21,360 nucleotides of DNA, from positions 1 through 21,360 of IMG/VR virus record IMGVR_UViG_3300048592_000285; one strand, 5' to 3'. The DNA comes from a virus. Both the position numbers and the translations under genes were made by a program. Under the pieces are notes generated by a model. It had not been told where the DNA came from. It searched no databases and worked only from the letters and a program-made list of their open reading frames with translations. Position 1 is the first letter of the stretch. Each line of letters starts with the position of its first letter. Of the stretch, positions 433 through 17,181 are shown piece by piece.

Positions 433-1023
433 TCAAGTCCCCCAGGACCGGAACGATCCGGTTTGCAGGACGCTCTCGGCCGTGATGCGGCCCATGGGCG
501 CCTCGGTCCACTCGGTTTCGGCGCGCCAGGTCAGCACGCGCCCGCGGCTATCGCAATCGGCGAACGTGAAGCTCAGGGCGGTCAGCCGGCAGCGGGCCGT
601 GAACACCCCGGGCAGGCACACGAGCAGCGCGGCCGGGCTGCACCCGAACTGCGTGGGCACCGGCTCCGGCGGCACGGTATGCGCCTCGAGGAACCGGCGC
701 GCCTGCTCGATGCGGTCGATGGCCCCGGCCAGGTCCTCGCCCCCGGGCAGCGCCCCCTGGCCCGCGAGCAGCATGTGGGCGTTGGCGTAGAGCTCAAAGG
801 CCCACGTCACGGCCTTGCCGCCCTGGTACACCTGATAGTCGTGGGACATGCCCAGCGGGGCCGCGCTTTGGTAGCCCATGCCGTGGCGCTGGCGCACCTC
901 AGCCGGCCGGAACGGGAACGTGAGCAGGTTCTCGGTGCCCAGCGGCCCGGCGGCCAGGCCCTCGGATCGGGCGTAGCCCTTGAGGCTCTGCGGCACGTCA
1001 TCGGGGCAGATCGTGAGCGGCAT
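433..1023 (-). CDS. CIS-tube / T4 gp53-like baseplate protein
   Basis: The ATG at 1021-1023 overlaps the tape measure TAA as TAATG. The 196-residue product reads like the tube-domain protein that precedes the LysM protein in contractile tails and injection systems: LTFPFRPAEVRQRHG, a GKAVTWAFELYANA strand, the helix GAIDRIEQARRFLEAHT, then SPAALLVCLPGVF, a LTALSFTFADCDSRG strand pair and a V-LTWRAETEWTE ending. Such proteins start the tube and dock to the hub. The downstream LysM protein supports this reading, because in several systems the two form one polypeptide. By-eye family match only. Confidence 0.65.
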   Translation of the reverse strand: MPLTICPDDVPQSLKGYARSEGLAAGPLGTENLLTFPFRPAEVRQRHGMGYQSAAPLGMSHDYQVYQGGKAVTWAFELYANAHMLLAGQGALPGGEDLAGAIDRIEQARRFLEAHTVPPEPVPTQFGCSPAALLVCLPGVFTARCRLTALSFTFADCDSRGRVLTWRAETEWTEAPMGRITAESVLQTGSFRSWGT

Positions 1024-3479
1024 TAGAAGGCCCCCTGCGGCGCGGGCGTGAAGCCCTCCTCATACCCGCGGCTTTGGTCGCTTTCGGTAACCAGGGCCAT
1101 TCCGCGGCCAACCTCCGATACGGTGATGGTGGCGTTTACCCGCGGAGCGGGCTGGCTTTGCACGATAGCCTTAACCTGCTCCGCTGTGAGGCCCGCGTTC
1201 TCGCCGGTTGCGTCGGAGAAGGCCCGCAGCGCGTTGCCCGCGCCAGTGGCCGCGCCACGGAGCATGCCTCCCTTGGGGGCGTAGAAGTCGGCGTAGTTCC
1301 CACCGATGCCGGTGGCCCCGGTGGTGACGGCTTCGCCTAGCTGCTGCCACGGCGCCTTCACGGGCTCCATGATGCCGCCCCAGATTTCGCCCAGCGTCTG
1401 CTTTACGCCGGGGGTTCTGTTGCCGCTTAGCACGTCGAAAAATCGGCCCAGGGTTTCGGGCACGCCGCCCGCTAGGCCCTTGAGCGCCTTGATGACCTCA
1501 GCGATGGCGTCCCGCACCCGGAAGAAGGTGTCCGCGACGAGCGTCACCTTGCCCGCCATGGGGCCCAGCACGTTCTCGCTCCACCAGGCCATGTGGCTAA
1601 TCACGGGCCCGATGACGGCGGCCAGCGTGCGGAACGCCGCCACGAAGGAATAGATGCCGTCCGCGATGTCCTGCGAGGACACGTCCCCAAGCTTGGTCGC
1701 GAGCCGCTGGCCCAGGTCCACGAGCGCGGTCATGGCCGCGATCCCGTACTCCCCAAGCTGCGCCAGGATAGCCCCGGCCCGCTCGCCCGCCGCCGTGGCG
1801 CTAGCCAGGCCGTCCGTGGCCTCGCCGCCGAGCGTGGCCCCGATGAGGCCGATCTTCTCAAAGAGCTTGTCCAGCGCCGGGCCCAGCTTAGCGAGGCCGC
1901 GGTCGAACCCCGCCGTGAGGCCGCTCCAGAACGCCTTGATGCGCTGTATCCAGCCCTCGGCCCGGGCCAGGAACGCACCCACGCCCCGGTTTTCGGCCTT
2001 GCCCAGCTCATTCTGTACGCCCTGCGACAACTTGCCCGATCCGATGAGGTCCGTGAGGCCCTGCCAGCCGAGCTTGATCTTGCGCACGGTGTCCTGCCAG
2101 GTGTCCCCCGCCGCGCCGACGTGCTTGGTAATGGCCCTAAATGCCGCGACCATGGCGATCCCAAAGCCCGCGAACAGGATGGACAGCGGGATCATGATGC
2201 CCACGATGATGCCGAGCGCCGCGGCCACGGTGGTCAGCGAGATGCCCAGGAGCGAGAGCCCGCCGACGAGCACGCCGATGCCGCCCACGCCCGTGAGCAG
2301 GCCCGCGATGCCGCCGACCACCGCGATGATGGCCTTGCGGGCCTCGGGCGGAATGGCGTCCGCAAGCTGCGCAAACGCCCCAGCCAGTTTGCTAATCAGA
2401 CCGACAAACGGCTCAAGCATATCGTTTGCCGTGCGCCCAAAAAGCACATCGATAAACTTCATGGTTTGATCGAGCACCTTGCGATGATGCTCCATCGTTG
2501 CGGACATCTTGGATACTGCCGCATCCGCAGCGCCGGTTCGATCCCGCATCTGATCCATAATGTCGGCAAAAGTTTTTCCACCGTTGGAGGCCAGCGCCAC
2601 CATGGTGTTATACGCCTCAATGGACCCGAACAGCTTAGTCATGGAGTCGGCGTTGAAGCCCGCGGCGCTGGTGACTCCGGTCAACCACTTCTCCCAGCCC
2701 TGCGCCCGCACGGCCGCTGCGCTGTACTCCACGCCTAGCCGCTTTGCTTCCGCTATGGCGACATCCTGCGGTTTGTTGAGTAGCGAGAACGCCGCCTTGA
2801 GGCCAGATACCGCTTCGGAAGTCTGAATGCCGCCCTGGGTCACGGCCGCGATGGACCCGAGCAGTTCGTCCATGGACACGCCGAGCACGTTAGCGCCCGA
2901 CGCCACCTTGCCAACGCTGGAGGCCAATTCCTCGGCGGTGGTCTTTCCCACGCGGATCGCCGTAAAGAACGCATCGTTGACGTCGTTCACGTCGAGTTGC
3001 TTATCCCGATAGGACAGCAGCACGTTCGTCAAGCCGTCCGCGGCGATGGAGGTGCTGGTCAGCCCGCCAACGGCCAGGCGGTTTGCCGCATCCATGGTTT
3101 TTTGTGCAGCCGCCGCGTCCGTGATACCGGCCGAGATGATCTGGTACAACGCGCGGGCGTTATCCTGCGCCTCGGTGCCGTACAGCAGGGACGCCCGCTG
3201 CGCCGCGGCCCGGATGTCGGCCTCCGGAAACGCCTCCTCGCTAATCAGCGTAGACACCTCGGCCACCGCGGTCTGGAGCTGCGCCGCGCTGGTCATGGCC
3301 TGCTCGAGGCCCCGGGCGATGCCCACGCCCGCGCCCACCATGGCCGCGCCGAGCACGCCCGCGGCCCGCTGCGCCGCCTGGACGAACTCGCCAAAGTTCT
3401 TGTTAACCTTGCCGATGGTCTGCGATGCCTGGTCGTCGGCCCAGATGGTGAATCCGGCGCCGAATTCGTTCATAGCCAT
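1023..3479 (-). CDS. Tail tape measure protein
   Basis: I start at the ATG at 3477-3479 (818 residues), with GGAGG ten bases upstream; an ATG two codons later is an alternative. Residues about 40-370 are the TP901-type tape measure core: a helical LQTAVAEVSTLISEE segment, a YGTEAQDNARALYQIISAG stretch, LGVSMDELLGSIAAVTQ and GGIQTSEAVSGLKAAFSLL. Residues about 383-449 are strongly hydrophobic, with several potential membrane-spanning helices, as in tape measures that insert into the host membrane during DNA entry. The rest is helical with amphipathic stretches. It sets tail length and is threaded in the tube. At about 1.5 angstrom per residue it would fit a tail of roughly 120 nm (inference). 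The stop overlaps the next start as TAATG. Confidence 0.93.
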   Translation of the reverse strand: MAMNEFGAGFTIWADDQASQTIGKVNKNFGEFVQAAQRAAGVLGAAMVGAGVGIARGLEQAMTSAAQLQTAVAEVSTLISEEAFPEADIRAAAQRASLLYGTEAQDNARALYQIISAGITDAAAAQKTMDAANRLAVGGLTSTSIAADGLTNVLLSYRDKQLDVNDVNDAFFTAIRVGKTTAEELASSVGKVASGANVLGVSMDELLGSIAAVTQGGIQTSEAVSGLKAAFSLLNKPQDVAIAEAKRLGVEYSAAAVRAQGWEKWLTGVTSAAGFNADSMTKLFGSIEAYNTMVALASNGGKTFADIMDQMRDRTGAADAAVSKMSATMEHHRKVLDQTMKFIDVLFGRTANDMLEPFVGLISKLAGAFAQLADAIPPEARKAIIAVVGGIAGLLTGVGGIGVLVGGLSLLGISLTTVAAALGIIVGIMIPLSILFAGFGIAMVAAFRAITKHVGAAGDTWQDTVRKIKLGWQGLTDLIGSGKLSQGVQNELGKAENRGVGAFLARAEGWIQRIKAFWSGLTAGFDRGLAKLGPALDKLFEKIGLIGATLGGEATDGLASATAAGERAGAILAQLGEYGIAAMTALVDLGQRLATKLGDVSSQDIADGIYSFVAAFRTLAAVIGPVISHMAWWSENVLGPMAGKVTLVADTFFRVRDAIAEVIKALKGLAGGVPETLGRFFDVLSGNRTPGVKQTLGEIWGGIMEPVKAPWQQLGEAVTTGATGIGGNYADFYAPKGGMLRGAATGAGNALRAFSDATGENAGLTAEQVKAIVQSQPAPRVNATITVSEVGRGMALVTESDQSRGYEEGFTPAPQGAF

Positions 3480-3480
3480 G

Positions 3481-3642
3481 CTATCGTCCCCTCCGGGCCT
3501 TGCGCAGGGCCGCGTTGTCCTCATCCCACCGGGTCTTGAGGCCCTTGAGGAGGGACAGCGCCTCGCCCACGGGCAGCGCGGCCGTCTCGGCCCAGGTGAG
3601 GGCAAAGCGCCCATAGTGCGGGGAGTGCCAGGCCAGGGACAT
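3481..3642 (-). CDS. Small tail ORF / frameshift extension of the chaperone
   Basis: This frame codes for 53 residues from the ATG at 3640-3642, which has a perfect AGGAGG (3648-3653) five bases upstream, so it can be translated alone. The same frame is also open back into the chaperone gene and can be reached by a -1 slip at CCCTTTT, adding 86 residues. The stretch before the ATG (GLTADQVQEVR) continues naturally into the visible MSLAWHSPHYGRF, which favours the fusion. The remainder is helical and charged (GEALSLLKGLKTRWDEDN, then KARRGR). In lambda G/GT and P2 E/E' the equivalent extension binds the tape measure. It lies directly before the tape measure gene. Both modes of expression may occur. 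Confidence 0.7.
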   Translation of the reverse strand: MSLAWHSPHYGRFALTWAETAALPVGEALSLLKGLKTRWDEDNAALRKARRGR

Positions 3643-3668
3643 CCGAACCTCCTGCACCTGGTCCGCGG

Positions 3669-4469
3669 TTAGTCCGCCGAGCAGGCCGCCCGGCGCCGCG
3701 CCCGCGCGGCCACCAGGGCCGGTCGGGTGAACGCCGCCGTAAAAGGGAGCGTGATGGTGAACCCGTGCCCGCACTCGCTGCGGGGGCAGGTCAGCTCCAC
3801 GTCGCTGTCCAGCCCGCAATCGTGGGCGTCCAGCGCCGCCTCGAGCAGGTCCACGTCCCCCATGAGCAGGCCAGGGTGGGCCGCCTTGGGGTTGCCGCCG
3901 TCCAGCCAGTCCAAAATCTCGTGCGCCTCGATGCCGGCCACGGATCGCAGGCGGGCCCGGATCTTGTTCCCGGGGCGGCCCGGGTGCTGCTTCTCGTTGC
4001 GCTCGCGCAAGCGCTCGGTCGCGGGCGTGGGCAGCCCGAAGGCCACCTCCCGCCCGTCGATGGTGCAGGTCAGGGGCGCCCCGGTGCGCACATGCTCCGC
4101 GCCCGCCGCGTCCAGGGGCCGCCACAGGAGATCCTTGCGCAGGTCGATATCGTAGCCGCTCGCGGCCCGGCACGCCGGGCAGCGCACCCCGGCCACCTCG
4201 TAGTGGTCCCCGGCGGGGTAGGACAGCGCCCGAAGCTCGACGAGCGCGGCCCACTGGTCGCCCATGAGGGCGGTTTCCCAGAACGTCGCAGGGTCGGCCG
4301 GGGTCGGGTATGGATCGGGCTCCAAAATGGCCACGGTGCACGCCTCGACCATGCGTTGCACGGTCTGCCGGCCGCTGCCCTTGGCCAAGATGGCCTCCTC
4401 GGAAAGGCGCAGGGGCCGAAGGGCCACCACGCACCCGCTGGGCAATGTGACGGGGGTCGCGTCGGACAT
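3669..4469 (-). CDS. Tail assembly chaperone / T4 gp26-like baseplate family, zinc-binding
   Basis: The ATG at 4467-4469 lies 23 bases after the tube stop and has only a weak ribosome binding site. The 266-residue product begins T-LPSG-VVALRPLRLSEE, as in tail assembly chaperones of contractile phages. Two cysteine pairs, C97-P-A-C100 and C228-P-R-S-E-C233, are about 130 residues apart and probably fold into one zinc site around a helical insert that contains RNEKQHPG and HEILDWLD. The gene lies between tube and tape measure, where such chaperones occur and often make a second, frameshifted product. A CCCTTTT slippery heptamer occurs in the correct phase at codons 241-243. The product is probably lost from the finished virion; I am sure of the position, less of the family name. 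Confidence 0.75.
   Translation of the reverse strand: MSDATPVTLPSGCVVALRPLRLSEEAILAKGSGRQTVQRMVEACTVAILEPDPYPTPADPATFWETALMGDQWAALVELRALSYPAGDHYEVAGVRCPACRAASGYDIDLRKDLLWRPLDAAGAEHVRTGAPLTCTIDGREVAFGLPTPATERLRERNEKQHPGRPGNKIRARLRSVAGIEAHEILDWLDGGNPKAAHPGLLMGDVDLLEAALDAHDCGLDSDVELTCPRSECGHGFTITLPFTAAFTRPALVAARARRRAACSAD
3741..3747 (-). promoter_or_regulatory. Candidate programmed -1 frameshift site CCCTTTT
   Basis: On the minus strand the chaperone reads CTC CCT TTT ACG at codons 241-244. The heptamer C CCT TTT is in the X XXY YYZ phase required for a tandem -1 slip, after which CCC TTT TAC is read. The -1 frame then stays open for 86 codons to the TAG at 3481-3483, giving a 329-residue fusion instead of the 266-residue product. 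GC-rich sequence follows closely, including GCGGC at 3733-3737 that can pair with GCCGC at 3706-3710. Slip efficiency cannot be judged from sequence. Confidence 0.6.
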
Positions 4470-4492: not shown

Positions 4493-4957
4493 CTACGCGG
4501 CGGGCGTGACGTCGTACCGGTCGAACTCGAACACCAGGGACTCCATCGAGACCTCGTTGGCGTCGTTGTCCCAGCCGTTGATCCGGTACTCCTTGCACCA
4601 GGCGTTGTACAGCGTGAATCGGCGCTTGACGCTGCCGTCCATGTCGAGTTGCACGATTGACACCGTGCGGTACAGCGCGGGCAGGTTCTGCCCCGTGGCC
4701 GCCGCGGCATCGTAGGTGCTGCGGAACCAGTTGAGCAGGTCCGTGTCGTCGCCCTCGGCCACGCCGCGCTCCAGGGTGATGGGCTCGAAGGACACCAGGC
4801 CCGGGGCCTTGTGCGGATGCCGCCGGCCGCCCTCGCGATACTCGATGGTCTCGGCAATCGCGGCGAGGTCCGTGGCGGACTTGAACGCGGCGCGCTCCAC
4901 CCCGTCGATTTCGACGAGGAAGGCAAAGCGCTTGTACCAGTTGGTCGGGGTTGCCAT
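4493..4957 (-). CDS. Tail tube protein (T4 gp19-like)
   Basis: The ATG at 4955-4957 has a perfect AGGAGG eight bases upstream and follows the sheath stop after 15 bases. The 154-residue product matches the gp19-like tube family. It opens NWYKRFAFLVEIDGVE and continues F-KSATDL and IAETIEYREGG, with the KAPGLVSFEPITLERGV strand that is the hallmark of the family. A loop D-TDLLNWFR, the RRFTLYNAWCKEY strand and the closing MESLVFEFDRYDV complete it. Six copies form each ring of the inner tube through which DNA passes. The sheath-then-tube order is standard for contractile tails and for related contractile injection systems. Confidence 0.93.
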   Translation of the reverse strand: MATPTNWYKRFAFLVEIDGVERAAFKSATDLAAIAETIEYREGGRRHPHKAPGLVSFEPITLERGVAEGDDTDLLNWFRSTYDAAAATGQNLPALYRTVSIVQLDMDGSVKRRFTLYNAWCKEYRINGWDNDANEVSMESLVFEFDRYDVTPAA

Positions 4958-4972: not shown

Positions 4973-7213
4973 TCAGGCGTCTAGCGCCCGGGTGTCCTGC
5001 GTGACGGTCAGCACGATGTACTCGGCCGGCTTGTTGGTGGCGAGGCCCACGCGGGCCGTGAGGATGCCCAGCCGCTCGTTGGCGGGCGGGTTGAGCTGGT
5101 CGCTCACGTCCACGAAGAACGCCAGCGCCGGATCGGTGCTGCGGAACGCGCCCTTGGCCATCTCGCCCGCGAGGTACTGCGTGATGGTGCGGCGCACGGC
5201 ATCACGCACCGTCGCGTTGTTATAGCGGTGCTTGAAGTTGACCATGAGGGCCTTGAGGGCGGCCTCGATGGCAATCACGCCCCGGCGCTCGCCCACGTTG
5301 GGGAAGCTCCCGGTGCTGCGCAGCGTGCGCCCGCCGTCCACGTGGATCGCGGTGCCTGGTAGCTTGGTGATGGGGTTGATCCGCTTGGGATACACGAGAT
5401 CCCGGATGGCCTCATCGACGACCTGGTGCGTGGTCGCGCCCAGGGGGTCGGCCTCGAAGCCGACCACGCCCGGGATGCTGCCCCAGCCGCTGCCCACGCC
5501 CGCCGGGCTCTGGTACACGCCGCCGGCCTTCTGGTCGTTCTTGGCGTAGAGCCCCGCGATGAGCCCGGACGGGGCCACCTCGATGGTGGACGCCGATCCG
5601 AACACGCTGGGCTGCGGGTTGGCCACCTGCACCCGGGGCCAGTAGATGGCGCCGAGCTCGCCGGTGGCGGCCTCGAGCAGGTTGTTCGCGGTCACGAAGG
5701 TGACCATCTGCTGCGCCGTCTGGCCCGCCGGGGGGTCGAGCGGACAGAAGAGCCCATTGTTCTTCACGGTGGCGCTGTAGTCCAGCATGGCGAGCTGCAC
5801 CGTGGCCGAGCTCACGCCCGGGACCAGAAGCAGGGTGCCATCGGTCACGATGTCGAAGGCGTAGAGCCCGGTCTTGCCCGCGCTGTTGCCGATGTAGTCC
5901 GCATCGGCCAGGGCCGCCAGGCCGTCGTCGCCGGAGGCCAGGAAGGCCGAGGTGCCGTTGGCCGGGCGCTGCACCGTAGGCGATCCCGCGACGTCGAGGT
6001 CGGTCACGGCCACCAGGTTGGAGCCGCTGTTGACATCGTTGACCACGGTCTCCACGAACCGGGCGGCGGTATCGTCCATGGTGACGTTCGGGAAGGTCTC
6101 GACGATGACGCCGGCCTGCGAGATCGCCAGGTTAAACTCGGAGGCCGTCCCGCTGGTCGCGGCGCTCACAATGGCGCGCACGGCGGCGGTGTAGGCGCCC
6201 GGGGTTTTGCCATCCACACGCAGGGTGTTGGTCGGCGCGGCCGCGGCGCCCACGTGGGCATCGCCATCCAGGCCGAAGTCGTAGGTCGAGGTGCCAAGCA
6301 CCTGGATTGCTGCCCCGGCGCCCGTGGCGACGGTGGAAATGATCATGTGGTCCGTGCCGTCGAAGGTCACAGCGGTGCCGGCCACGGCAGCCTCGATGAC
6401 CGTCTCGGCCTCGGCCGCAGTCACCTCGTGGATGTTTCCCACGTTGCCCGTGCCGGCGCTGGCCACGGTCGGGAAAAGCAGGATCGCGTTCAGCGTCCCG
6501 CCGGTGGTCACGTGGATGCTGGCATCCGTACCCAGCACGTCCGTGGTGATCTTGACCTGCCCGCCATCGACCACCGCATGGGCACCAGCGATCTGTCCGT
6601 TGATCAACGCCGCCACGGCTTCCGCGGTGGTTTCGCCACCTGCCGCCGTGATGGTCTGCTCCGCGCCGCCGTTGGCGCCCGCCACGGTGATGCCCATGGT
6701 TTGCGCTACCAGGGCCGCAATCGGATAGGCCACCGTATCGGTGATGGTCCCCGCGGCTGCGTTGAACGTGGCGGCCACGCTGCCCGCGCCGAGGTCGAGG
6801 TCGATGTGATCCGCCGGGTCGAGCCGGAATGGGGCCACGTCGGTTCCCGGCCCAACCACGGCTGGGGTCGCCAGGCTGCCGGTGTTCTGGAGGTTGATCG
6901 TGCCCTTGACGGCGGTGTACGCCGTGCGGGTGGTCAGGTCGGTGTAGTGGCAGATCCGGTTGCCGTAGCAGTAGGATCCGCCCGCGTTGAAGAACGCATG
7001 CGCCGCGAGGGTCGCGTCGGCCGAGGCCGTGAACCCGCCGAACACCCGCACCCACTCGGAGAACGAGGTGCATAGCTGGGGATCATTGATCGGGCCCCGC
7101 TCCATGATGCCCTCAATCAGGGCGATGGCGGACGGGAGCGCCTGTGCGGCCGGGATCTGCGGGTCCTCCTCGAGGACCACCACCTTGGAGGCGAGCAGCA
7201 ACGTCGAAGCCAT
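4973..7213 (-). CDS. Contractile tail sheath protein
   Basis: The ATG at 7211-7213 has AAGGAG six bases upstream. The product is 746 residues, long against the roughly 390-500 of P2- or Mu-type sheaths. The N-terminus shows sheath features: ALPSAIALIEGIMERGP and the S-F-S-E-W-VRVFGG segment with an A-x-A-A-H-AFF-NGG-like continuation. The core resumes near 360 (FNLAISQ, TFPNVT, AARFVETVVND). The C-terminal 180 residues are the conserved domain IV: TKLPGTAIHVDGGRT, then R-RGVIAIEAALKALMVNF, RRTITQYL, LNPPANERLGI and AEYIVLTVTQ. About residues 112-318 are an Ala/Thr/Gly-rich insertion with two related modules. Sheath proteins wrap the tube and contract on infection; the tube gene is next. This gene defines the phage as a myovirus. 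Confidence 0.95.
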   Translation of the reverse strand: MASTLLLASKVVVLEEDPQIPAAQALPSAIALIEGIMERGPINDPQLCTSFSEWVRVFGGFTASADATLAAHAFFNAGGSYCYGNRICHYTDLTTRTAYTAVKGTINLQNTGSLATPAVVGPGTDVAPFRLDPADHIDLDLGAGSVAATFNAAAGTITDTVAYPIAALVAQTMGITVAGANGGAEQTITAAGGETTAEAVAALINGQIAGAHAVVDGGQVKITTDVLGTDASIHVTTGGTLNAILLFPTVASAGTGNVGNIHEVTAAEAETVIEAAVAGTAVTFDGTDHMIISTVATGAGAAIQVLGTSTYDFGLDGDAHVGAAAAPTNTLRVDGKTPGAYTAAVRAIVSAATSGTASEFNLAISQAGVIVETFPNVTMDDTAARFVETVVNDVNSGSNLVAVTDLDVAGSPTVQRPANGTSAFLASGDDGLAALADADYIGNSAGKTGLYAFDIVTDGTLLLVPGVSSATVQLAMLDYSATVKNNGLFCPLDPPAGQTAQQMVTFVTANNLLEAATGELGAIYWPRVQVANPQPSVFGSASTIEVAPSGLIAGLYAKNDQKAGGVYQSPAGVGSGWGSIPGVVGFEADPLGATTHQVVDEAIRDLVYPKRINPITKLPGTAIHVDGGRTLRSTGSFPNVGERRGVIAIEAALKALMVNFKHRYNNATVRDAVRRTITQYLAGEMAKGAFRSTDPALAFFVDVSDQLNPPANERLGILTARVGLATNKPAEYIVLTVTQDTRALDA
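6269..6631 (-). repeat. Two related modules inserted in the sheath protein
   Basis: Residues 195-244 (6482-6631) and 265-315 (6269-6421) look like two versions of one alpha/beta module: T-x-AEA followed by a helix, then AG-A-VV or AG-AVTF, a KITT or IIST strand, a G-(T/A)-x-(A/G)-(S/A)-I-(H/Q)-V strand, and a T-G-G-T or GTST turn. This kind of small module is common in virion proteins of phages and prophages. The two copies differ strongly, so it is an old duplication. Confidence 0.6.
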
Positions 7214-13877: not shown

Positions 13878-15884
13878 TTAGGCCTCGTGCTTGATGTAGA
13901 GGGTGCCGTCCGGCGTGCTCGTAAAGCCTACCGGCGGGTCGCCCGTGCCGTAGTAGATCCCGACCACCTGCGGCGTGGTGCCGTCATTGTCGGCCGAGAT
14001 CGTAACGTGCGGCGCGGCCACGGTGCCCGTGAACGTGGGCGAGGCCAGAGCCGCCTTCTCGGCGTCGAGCTCCTCGAGGGCCAGCTGTACGTTCGCGGCC
14101 GCGATGTCCCCGGCCGGCGTAAACGCCACGCCCGATGCGGTGGTGCTCGTCGTGCCAGCCGCCTGCGGGAGCGACGACGCGCGCCGGTAGTCGTCCGCCG
14201 CGACAAGCGCTTGCACCACCCCGTCCGCACGCACAACCAGGCGATACAGCGGGCGCAGTTCGGGGCTCAGCCCCATGGCCGAAAGGTTCGGGAAGCCGAC
14301 CGCCCGCGCGTTGGCAAGGGAGCTATAGCCATTGGCCGTCGCGATGCCAGCGGGCACCGTCTCGGCAAAGCAGTAGGTCGGCGTGTGCAGGTCCTGCGTG
14401 CCGTAGATGAAGAAATTGAAGTAGCGGTTGACCGCCGAGTCGGCCTCGGTCAGCACGTACCCCGTTTCGTTGACGTAGGTCGGCCGTCCGTTTACCCCCG
14501 CGCGGAAGGGCACCGTGGAGGGCGCCGCGTCGAAGGCCTCGGTGAGCGCCCCGGTCTGATACCAGGTCCGCAGCGCGTGCGCGGTGGGATAGGCGCTCGA
14601 TGCGACCGCCGAAAAGACGATGTCCTCGTCCCAGAGATCCCCTCCGCTCATGGTGAACGTGGCCGCCGCCCCCGTGCCGGTCGGCACGAAGTCAAACCCG
14701 GAATAGTAGCGCACGCCTACGGTGCGGTGCGCCCACAGGTGCCAGGCGTGGTCGCGGTTGTACCCGTGCCGCTCGTCGCTCACGAGCCCGTAGTTGCTGC
14801 CGTTCCAGAACACGGTCGCGATGATGACGTTGTCCAGGTGCCCAAGGCCGGGAAACGCCTTGGTGGCGAGCAGCGTGCCCAGCGCCGCGTTGAAGTACAC
14901 GTAGTAAAGCCCAGCCGTCGAACCGCCCGCGCCGTCGTCGAGCGTGGCGGTCGTGTCCGCCGTCACGGCGACGAGGGTGCCCTGGTAGTAGTAGGAGATC
15001 GGGTTGGCGGTCGCGCCCAGCGTGAACGTCGTCGTCGTGAGGTGCGTCGGCAGGCAGTTCAGCCCCGGCGCGGTGCTGCGGGCGACAACGCCGTGGTAGC
15101 GCTTGAGCGTGCTGTAGTCGGTTGGGCCGGTCGGCCCGGTCGATCCAGTAGCCCCTGTCGCCCCATGCAGGCCCGTCGCCCCGGTCAGCCCGGTGGCCCC
15201 CGTTGGCCCGGTTGGCCCTGTCGCGCCGGTAGCGCCCGTAAAACCTGTTGGTCCCGTCGCGCCGCGTGGCCCGGTTGGTCCTGTCACTCCTGGCAATCCC
15301 GTAGGGCCGGTTGGGCCTGTAGCCCCGTCCGCACCTGTTGGTCCCGTCGCGCCTGTCGCGCCTGCGATACCCGTAGGACCCGTTGCTCCGGTCGATCCGG
15401 GTAACCCCGGCATGCCAGTAGCGCCCGTCGCCCCCGTTGCTGATGCCGTGCCCGGCAGGCCGGTCGCACCCGTGGCGCCGGTTGCTCCCGTGGCCCCTGG
15501 AAGGCCGGGCGTCCCCGGAAGGCCCGTGGCACCGGTCGCGCCCGTGGACCCGGTGGCGCCTGCTAGACCGGGAGTGCCGGGCAAACCGGTCGCTCCGGTC
15601 GCGCCCGTGGCGCCAGGCAGTCCCGGCGTGCCTGGCAGACCGGTCGCTCCCGTGGCCCCTGTCGCGCCTGTGGCTCCTGGTGATCCCGGCGTTCCCGGTA
15701 GCCCAGTCGACCCCGTGGCGCCTGTCGCTCCGGTTGCGCCCGTGGCCCCCGTCGCTGTGGCGGACCCCGGCAAACCCGTGGCGCCCGTGGCGCCGGTCGC
15801 GCCCGTGGCCCCGGCCCCGCCGGACGGGCCGGTCGCCCCCGTGGCCCCCGTGGCCCCCTTGATGCGCGGGTTGCTCAGCTGCAT
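13878..15884 (-). CDS. Collagen-like fibre protein
   Basis: The ATG at 15882-15884 lies inside the end of the glycosyltransferase gene and has GGAGG seven bases upstream. The 668-residue product has a nine-residue N-terminus, then 82 Gly-X-Y triplets (residues 10-255), mostly Gly-Ala-Thr, Gly-Pro-Thr and Gly-Leu-Pro. These should form a trimeric collagen triple helix without need for hydroxyproline. Residues 256-668 are a large globular beta-rich part. Near 598-612 is the widespread phage-fibre motif [13 protein letters not shown], followed by SPTFTGTV, which usually marks a trimerising fibre segment. Collagen-like proteins are known in phage fibres and in spore filaments such as BclA, where Gly-Pro-Thr triplets carry O-linked sugars. 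The likely role is a surface fibre; whether it stands on head or tail is unknown. Confidence 0.9.
15120..15857 (-). repeat. Collagen Gly-X-Y repeat region (82 triplets)
   Basis: On the minus strand this 738-base stretch encodes 82 consecutive triplets. All begin with Gly except the twelfth (TAT) and the forty-seventh (SAT). Triplets 13-47 show a higher-order unit of about seven: three or four GAT followed by GLP, GTP and GLP or a variant. Triplets 48-82 are richer in GPT. Synonymous codons vary from copy to copy, so the array is not a fresh expansion of one DNA unit. It is a protein-coding repeat, not a CRISPR or a satellite. Confidence 0.95.
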
Positions 15885-16777
15885 GGGTTCGCCTCCGGTG
15901 CGCTGCGAATGAACAGCACGTCTTCGTTAGTCGCGGTCGCCGCCCACGCGCGCCAGCGCGCGGCGTTCTTCGGCCCGCTCAGCGCCGCCATGAGGGTCAG
16001 CGCCTCGTGAAAGTTGGTGTTGATTTGGATAGCCCGCAGGCAGGCCGCGCGGGCCGCGTCCATGGCCCCGAGCTGCGCGTGGCAGCGCGCCTGCATGAGC
16101 CAGGCGTCGGCCATCTCCGGCGCCCACGTCGCCCGCGCCAGGTAGCGGTCGAGCTCGGCCAGCGCCGCGCGCCAGTGCCCGCGGTACCAGTGCTCCCGCG
16201 CGAGATAGTACCGCTCGCGGGTCGCCGCCGGGTCCTCGGCCACGGCCGCCGTCAGGATGCGCAGCGCGCGATCCGGGTCGGCCTGGTGCGCCGGGCTGTG
16301 CCCGTAGGTGATGCGCAGCGCCGTGCGCTCGCCCGTCGCGAGGGTCAAATAGTTGTGGCAGCGCCCGCGCCAGCGCGTCGTCGGCAGCCGCCGGAAGCAC
16401 CGGATCGAGGGGTGCACCTGCGTCGGGTGCCCCGCCGCCACGGTGTCGAAGTAGAGCGCATCCAGGGCCGTAGCCGCACAGGCGGCCCGCACCTTGGCGA
16501 TGCCGCCCGGCTCGAGCTCCTCGTCGGCGTCGATGACAAGCACCCAGTCCCCGGTGCAGCGGTCGAGGCTCTGGTTGCGGCTCCACGCGAAGTCGTCGCG
16601 CCACGCGAACTCCGGCCCCGCGTAGACCGTGGCCCCGTGCGCTTGCGCGAGGGCGATGGTGGCGTCCGTGCTCCCGGTGTCCACCACCACGATCTCGTCG
16701 GCCCCTTGCACCGAGGCCAGGCACGTCGCCAGCTGCGCAGCCTCGTTCTTGACGATCATGGAGACGGACAGCCTCAC
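15875..16777 (-). CDS. Family 2 glycosyltransferase with C-terminal TPR-like repeats
   Basis: I start at the GTG at 16775-16777, which overlaps the previous TGA as GTGA and gives the family-typical opening [13 protein letters not shown] (300 residues). The GT-A core shows the nucleotide-binding signature V-V-D-T-G-S-T-D at residues 31-38, an aromatic [12 protein letters not shown] block at 57-68 and the metal-binding DAD at 83-85. An RGRCHNYL segment near 140 matches the position of the acceptor-side histidine motif in SunS-like enzymes. Residues about 175-265 form helical TPR-like repeats. Known relatives move a sugar from a nucleotide-sugar onto proteins (SunS acts on a peptide cysteine) or glycans. 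The collagen-like gene starts inside this gene with a 10-base overlap, so the fibre is the obvious candidate acceptor. The family call is firm; the acceptor is inferred. Confidence 0.9.
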
Positions 16778-17181
16778 TGGCGCACCTCTGGTGCGGCCGC
16801 CACGGCAACCGCCTTCGGCTTCGCGATGATCGCCGCCGAGTCTATCTCCTTGGTCGGCGTCACCCGCGCACACTCCGGGCTGGACAGGCCCCCGCCGAAC
16901 ACGATGGTCGGGATGGCCTTGTCCTTAGCCTCCTTGTCCTTGATGGTGGCCTTGATGTCCTTGCGCTTGCCGCTCACGTCCACGGTGTTCCAGGTCGTGT
17001 AGGGGATCTTCTCTTTGTCCAGATAGCGGAGCTGGTCCGCGCTCACGCGGCAGAGGTAGGTCAGCACCTCGCCCTTGGTATCCGTCACCGGCACGCGGGC
17101 GTAAAGCTCGTCTTCTGCGTGGCCCTCTTTGACCTTCTCGATGGTGGCCGCTTCTAGGTAGACGTCGTAATAGACGGTCAT
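16774..17181 (-). CDS. Lysine-rich small protein of unknown function
   Basis: The ATG at 17179-17181 overlaps the TGA of the adhesin gene as ATGA, with GGAG seven bases upstream inside that gene. The 135-residue product begins with a strand-like MTVYYDVYLEA and has a compact N-terminal half with YARVPV and YLCRVS segments. A very charged central stretch of alternating Lys and Asp/Glu follows (KRKDIKATIKDKEAKDK, about 72-88). The C-terminal tail is rich in Ala, Pro and Val. I do not recognise a family. Its TGA overlaps the GTG start of the glycosyltransferase, so it probably shares translation with that enzyme. It could be a small structural protein, an adhesin chaperone or a partner of the transferase; nothing in the sequence decides. 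Confidence 0.65.
   Translation of the reverse strand: MTVYYDVYLEAATIEKVKEGHAEDELYARVPVTDTKGEVLTYLCRVSADQLRYLDKEKIPYTTWNTVDVSGKRKDIKATIKDKEAKDKAIPTIVFGGGLSSPECARVTPTKEIDSAAIIAKPKAVAVAAAPEVRQ

Follow-up and report, generated by a model that had tools for sequence, protein, structure and literature searches.

The window, a 21-kb fragment (21,360 nucleotides) from the IMG/VR database, comes from a contractile-tailed phage. On its minus strand lie, in this order, genes for a tail sheath protein, a tail tube protein, a 266-residue protein, a -1-frame extension of the latter, and a tape measure protein (Table 1). The same sheath-tube-chaperone-extension-tape measure order is found in the relatives of the phage. 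Two overlapping ORFs are thus placed between the major tail protein and the tape measure protein, as in a G/GT-type arrangement. Elsewhere on the minus strand, the window encodes a likely tail fibre protein of 668 residues that includes an extended collagen-like Gly-x-y repeat (13878-15884), and a family 2 glycosyltransferase-like ORF is found within the tail and fibre region (15875-16873).

Table 1. Features of the tail region, numbered from the first nucleotide of the window
Feature	Position	Strand	Remarks
Tail sheath	4973..7213	-	phrog_17610 tail sheath match, 1.1e-46
gp19-like tail tube protein	4493..4957	-	PF06841, 8.1e-27
0-frame tail assembly chaperone (G-like), 266 aa	3669..4469	-	T4 gp26 / PF12322-like, two Cys pairs
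First Cys pair of the chaperone, C97 and C100	4170..4181	-	Invariant alignment columns
Second Cys pair of the chaperone, C228 and C233	3771..3788	-	Invariant columns, shortly before the heptamer-bearing LPF
Putative slippery heptamer C CCU UUU (0-frame CCU UUU; -1 re-pairing CCC UUU)	3741..3747	-	In phase
Chaperone stop TAA	3669..3671	-	Within the -1 reading (CTA ACC = L T)
Predicted -1 frame extension (T-like), 86 aa post-shift, stop 3483-3481	3481..3741	-	-1 reading conserved in relatives
AGGAGG-N5-ATG in the extension, possible internal start	3640..3653	-	Probably incidental; SD energy -11.0 kcal/mol, not conserved
Tail tape measure protein	1023..3479	-	PhageMin_Tail, 3e-20; TP901 tape measure, 2.9e-24

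The 0-frame around the heptamer reads ...ACG CTC CCT TTT ACG GCG... on the minus strand, so that an in-phase X XXY YYZ site precedes the chaperone stop, another feature of G/GT-type systems; 23 sense codons separate it from the TAA. A preliminary description of the window had reported an in-phase C CCT TTT near the chaperone stop, with products of 266 and 329 residues and a -1 frame open up to the segment directly before the tape measure gene. All its coordinates hold, as do both predicted sizes (the longer product being 243 + 86 residues, with an LPF/YGG junction), and no intact relative within the clade has lost the open -1 frame. In the window sequence alone, neither the heptamer nor the open frame is significant, since CCCTTTT occurs once where 0.6 occurrences are expected by chance, and the GC content of 68% leaves almost the entire chaperone gene open in the -1 frame (a 317-residue ORF; the upstream part of the gene contains no -1 stop). 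Their significance comes only from the relatives.

The chaperone belongs with T4 gp26 (Pfam T4_baseplate, PF12322). The window protein alone did not match PF12322; 12 of 13 aligned members matched it at E<1 (best, 3.9e-10), copies from Myxococcus reached or exceeded its cut-off (31.4 and 24.5 versus 24.5 bits), and relatives were placed in the PHROG family phrog_150, "baseplate hub." The family profile aligned with T4 gp26 over 170 columns that cover most of gp26 and contain both Cys pairs (hhalign probability 84, E 7e-6). An AlphaFold2 model of the window chaperone (pLDDT 92.4) gave the SP-15 hub subunit as its best BFVD match (6e-15), together with T4-like hub assembly proteins (3e-11), and a fold search of the PDB with this model returned no significant match. 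The predicted model and the profile match thus point to a fold and Cys pairs shared with PF12322 and T4 gp26. No match of the chaperone to G-type chaperones was found in Pfam or PHROG. T4 gp26 and gp51 are both listed as hub assembly chaperones (PMC3004832). Gene 26 of T4 differs from the gene described here in that it occupies another place, where it is divergent from gene 51, and stops soon after the second Cys pair, without a T piece. T4 gp51 was considered as the partner, a candidate that was unsupported (probability 3; genes 26 and 51 divergent).

Relatives were collected in several ways. Searches with the sheath and the tape measure protein yielded loci whose sheaths are mostly 41 to 56% identical or whose tape measures are approximately 42% identical to those of the window. 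A chaperone profile search gave 44 loci, some of them duplicate fetches, and one prophage copy used as a query gave 39 chromosomal loci, nearly all in Myxococcota. A scan of viral contigs with the single chaperone sequence returned no match. Some myxobacterial genomes contain two or three copies of the tail module on different contigs (loci L065-L103).

Exactly one in-phase CCCTTTN was present shortly after the second Cys pair in 92 of the 101 records with a chaperone ORF. The nine exceptions are five phages with a +1-frame extension (L002-L006), one locus with T TTT TTC (L064), one in which the heptamer is present and the upstream frame is broken (L061), and two prophages that are rearranged (L099 and L100). 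The latter were rejected as loci devoid of the arrangement, because they are rearranged after or before the site. The preliminary description had noted that the heptamer varies between phages, which is true in general but not within this clade, where the comparison of relatives that it had proposed showed that all intact members keep it. The frame change might also have been introduced by faulty sequencing or assembly into a gene that encodes all 329 residues in one frame, as the window is a single metagenomic contig. Yet the same frame relation recurs in dozens of independent metagenomes and in isolate genomes, which refutes this explanation, and we give it virtually no credence.

Clustering yielded 21 representatives at 50% identity, 34 at 70%, and 55 at 90%. 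With the exceptions listed above, representatives were chosen for holding CCCTTT and are mutually related, so the figures given below indicate strength rather than exact probabilities. Among the 21 representatives, the site reads CTC CCT followed by TTC (13), TTG (4), TTT (2), or TTA (1), or GTC CCT TTC (1). The Pro codon is CCT in all 21, compared with 9.7% of the other Pro codons of the same genes (log10 P of -24, with heptamer-selected, related representatives), and the preceding Leu or Val codon ends in C in all 21, compared with 36% elsewhere (log10 P of -10, with the same restriction). These data bear on the possibility that a conserved Leu-Pro-Phe protein motif yields the heptamer as a by-product, the small ORF being in the -1 frame by chance. 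LPF is indeed nearly invariant in the chaperone protein, and open frames come cheaply in GC-rich DNA. However, the site always has the same synonymous Pro codon, compared with a background of 9 to 10%, TTN is kept throughout even though Phe became Leu (TTG or TTA) in 5 of the 21 representatives, and the change from Leu to Val retains GTC. The retention of TTN where Phe was replaced indicates a constraint on the nucleotides. Conservation of the LPF protein motif accounts for part, but not all, of the conservation of the site.

The coding pattern of the -1 frame argues against the chance part of the same explanation. Between the heptamer and the chaperone stop, none of 573 -1 codons is a stop, versus 120 of 4599 upstream (approximately 3e-7, among related representatives), and the frame relation is identical in all -1 loci of the clade. 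A -1 stop 6 to 12 nt upstream of the heptamer in several loci locates the shift to this place. Beyond the 0-frame stop, substitutions in 41 unique loci of identical geometry are distributed over the three -1 codon positions as 5499:3670:11293, and -1 codons with a single change comprise 4841 nonsynonymous and 10781 synonymous cases, versus 13864 and 3320 in the control phase. The same -1 coding pattern is found from the 0-frame stop to the core motif (1403:455:2504). By these comparisons, the -1 frame beyond the chaperone stop is under strong purifying selection, and the by-product explanation is close to refuted. Slippery site and second-frame coding, conserved together as in G/GT-type systems, are thus established by sequence comparison along with gene order and family membership, and we consider it very likely that C CCU UUU is a site of programmed -1 frameshifting.

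An identical fusion would result from transcriptional slippage on short runs of C and T. Transcriptional slippage usually takes place on runs of 8 or 9 bases, and the runs of three C and three or four T in the heptamer are far shorter. Moreover, the X XXY YYZ codon phase is kept, which only a ribosome would need. We therefore regard slippage by the RNA polymerase as very improbable.

The preliminary description had also suggested that the extension may be made alone, from an ATG preceded by AGGAGG. The motif is present in the -1 frame (AGGAGG at 3653-3648, 5 nt ahead of the ATG at 3642-3640), but a start with a strong Shine-Dalgarno (SD) sequence before the core motif is found in just three of the 34 representatives, each time at another codon (ATG in the window, TTG in L045, and GTG in L049). 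The internal ATG corresponds to Met only in the window and in L009, where no SD sequence is found, and to Lys, Arg, Gln, or similar residues elsewhere. Alignment of the residues between heptamer and ATG, which had been proposed as a check, showed that the peptide ahead of the ATG, straddling the chaperone stop, is conserved (LLGGLTADQVQEVR in the window and VLGGLTAENILDLR in L009), and the AGGAGG itself corresponds to codons for Gln-Glu-Val in a conserved stretch (LLGGLTADQVQEVRM and VLGGLTAENILDLRM, respectively).

A separate 53-residue gene starting at this ATG, alone or beside frameshifting, is in our estimation unlikely, though less so than the other alternatives. The SD energy of the putative start (-11.0 kcal/mol) compares with those of the tube (-10.2) and tape measure (-10.0) genes, and the T piece is called as a separate ORF in annotated distant phages. 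Against this, no conserved start codon with a ribosome binding site was found among the 34 representatives, and nine of them (L008, L011, L013, L014, L026, L029, L032, L040, and L091) lack any start codon ahead of the core. The 0-frame stop of L011 and L029 lies at or past the conserved core, which, like the conserved residues ahead of the ATG, argues against a separate gene. Such a gene would also leave the heptamer unexplained. As it is not conserved, the internal start is probably incidental; it may work weakly in this phage and is no feature of the system.

We looked for elements that might stimulate frameshifting. Folding of the 60 or 100 nt downstream of the heptamer gave a mean z of -0.4 among the relatives, the same as for control stretches of the same genes, and a z of +0.5 for the window; no RNA stimulator was found in these stretches. 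AGGAGGT is frequent at -13 to -7 from the heptamer in myxococcal members, a position at which an SD sequence could favour -1 slipping. It was rejected as an upstream stimulator, as it is confounded with codons for conserved Gln-Glu-Val residues and is missing in the window.

We infer the occurrence of slippage, its efficiency, and the roles of both proteins as follows. Most ribosomes would pass C CCU UUU unshifted and terminate after 266 residues, releasing the G-like chaperone. In a minority, the Pro and Phe tRNAs would slip back by one base, from CCU UUU to CCC UUU, and these ribosomes would cross the UAA in the -1 frame and yield a G-T fusion of 329 residues. If the two parts act as in lambda G/GT, coating of the tape measure protein would fall to G, and recruitment of the tube or sheath protein to T. 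With such roles, the ratio of G to GT would be important for the assembly of the tail.

Homologous chaperones and T pieces are found in the same gene order in more distant phages, including Bacillus phage SP-15, Listeria phage LIS04, Streptococcus phage GXN1, five Streptomyces phages (BRock group), and Microcystis phage Mel-JY01, none of which contains C CCT TTN; LR756508 also has a homologous T piece. Unlike in the clade of the window, the T piece of all these loci (L002-L006, L104-L106, L108, and L109) is in the +1 (or -2) frame and remains open past the stop codon of the chaperone. Annotations either list it as a small ORF of its own or omit it. Comparison of the T profiles of this clade and of the SP-15 group (probability 94, E 2e-7) shows that the extension of the window and the +1-frame T pieces, among them that of SP-15, are homologues. 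In the Streptomyces phages, T coding is conserved from before the chaperone stop codon. Candidate slip codons of this group are UUU C or UUU U in an FF motif just downstream of the place of LPF. Three other loci, L064, Agrobacterium phage Atu_ph07 (L110), and LR756511 (L107), have a -1 T piece and an in-phase T TTT TTC at a Phe-Phe motif, again downstream of the LPF place. According to the preliminary description, relatives that lack the heptamer and keep the small ORF would speak against frameshifting. Such relatives do occur among the distant phages, but their ORF is out of frame with the chaperone and open across its stop, in the +1 frame or in the -1 frame with T TTT TTC, and is no free-standing gene. 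The C-terminal part of the frameshift extension has been called as a separate ORF in phrog_20255 (63 residues, matched by the T piece of L042).

In contractile-system loci of Myxococcota, the equivalent piece is DUF6760 (PF20546), located directly after a PF12322-like chaperone and in the -1 frame across its stop. Three of these loci (L120, L121, and L135) have T TTT TTG or TTA 19 nt before the chaperone stop, and in eleven others (L114-L119, L123-L126, and L128) DUF6760 is in the -1 frame, mostly without a standard heptamer. An almost invariant GGGGAATC[GA]TAAGCTACCC spans the junction between chaperone stop and DUF6760 in these eleven loci. In L122, a gp26-like chaperone and a DUF6760-like end share one frame of 294 residues, an apparent natural fusion. 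The T piece of the window did not match PF20546, and weak matches were limited to the T pieces of L064 and BRock (E 0.15 to 0.2). DUF6760 carries no functional annotation in Pfam, and no mention of it was found in the open-access literature. We consider it slightly more likely than not that all T4-gp26-like chaperones, of phages and bacterial contractile systems, are counterparts of lambda G and are generally extended by frameshifting into T, DUF6760 being one form of it. The slip site would have moved along the LPF...FF segment and the direction would have changed (-1 at C CCU UUN or U UUU UUC, +1 near UUU), with some pairs fused in frame and T lost in T4.

The mechanism is of a known kind. 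Lambda G/GT and P2 E/E' differ from the present system both in protein family, ours being T4 gp26-like with two Cys pairs, and in their slippery sequence, which is C CCU UUN here. A CCCUUU-type slippery run is found in the tail chaperone gene of coliphage 9g (PMC4276943), a siphophage in which the sequence is CCCUUUUUUU and the shift is -2 (PMC4276943). The presence of frameshifting in this chaperone family and at this site appears unreported in the open-access literature, to which our search was confined, so that the absence of an earlier report is not proof.

By these observations, genes that carry the label "baseplate hub" or "hypothetical" in many phages and Myxococcota genomes would act as tail chaperones and encode an overlooked fusion protein. 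G/T frameshifting is widespread in long-tailed phages, with T4 as the stated exception (PMC5009743); our findings suggest that T4 gp26 is a G part without T. They also offer a single family of homologous genes within which a programmed frameshift would have switched direction in evolution.
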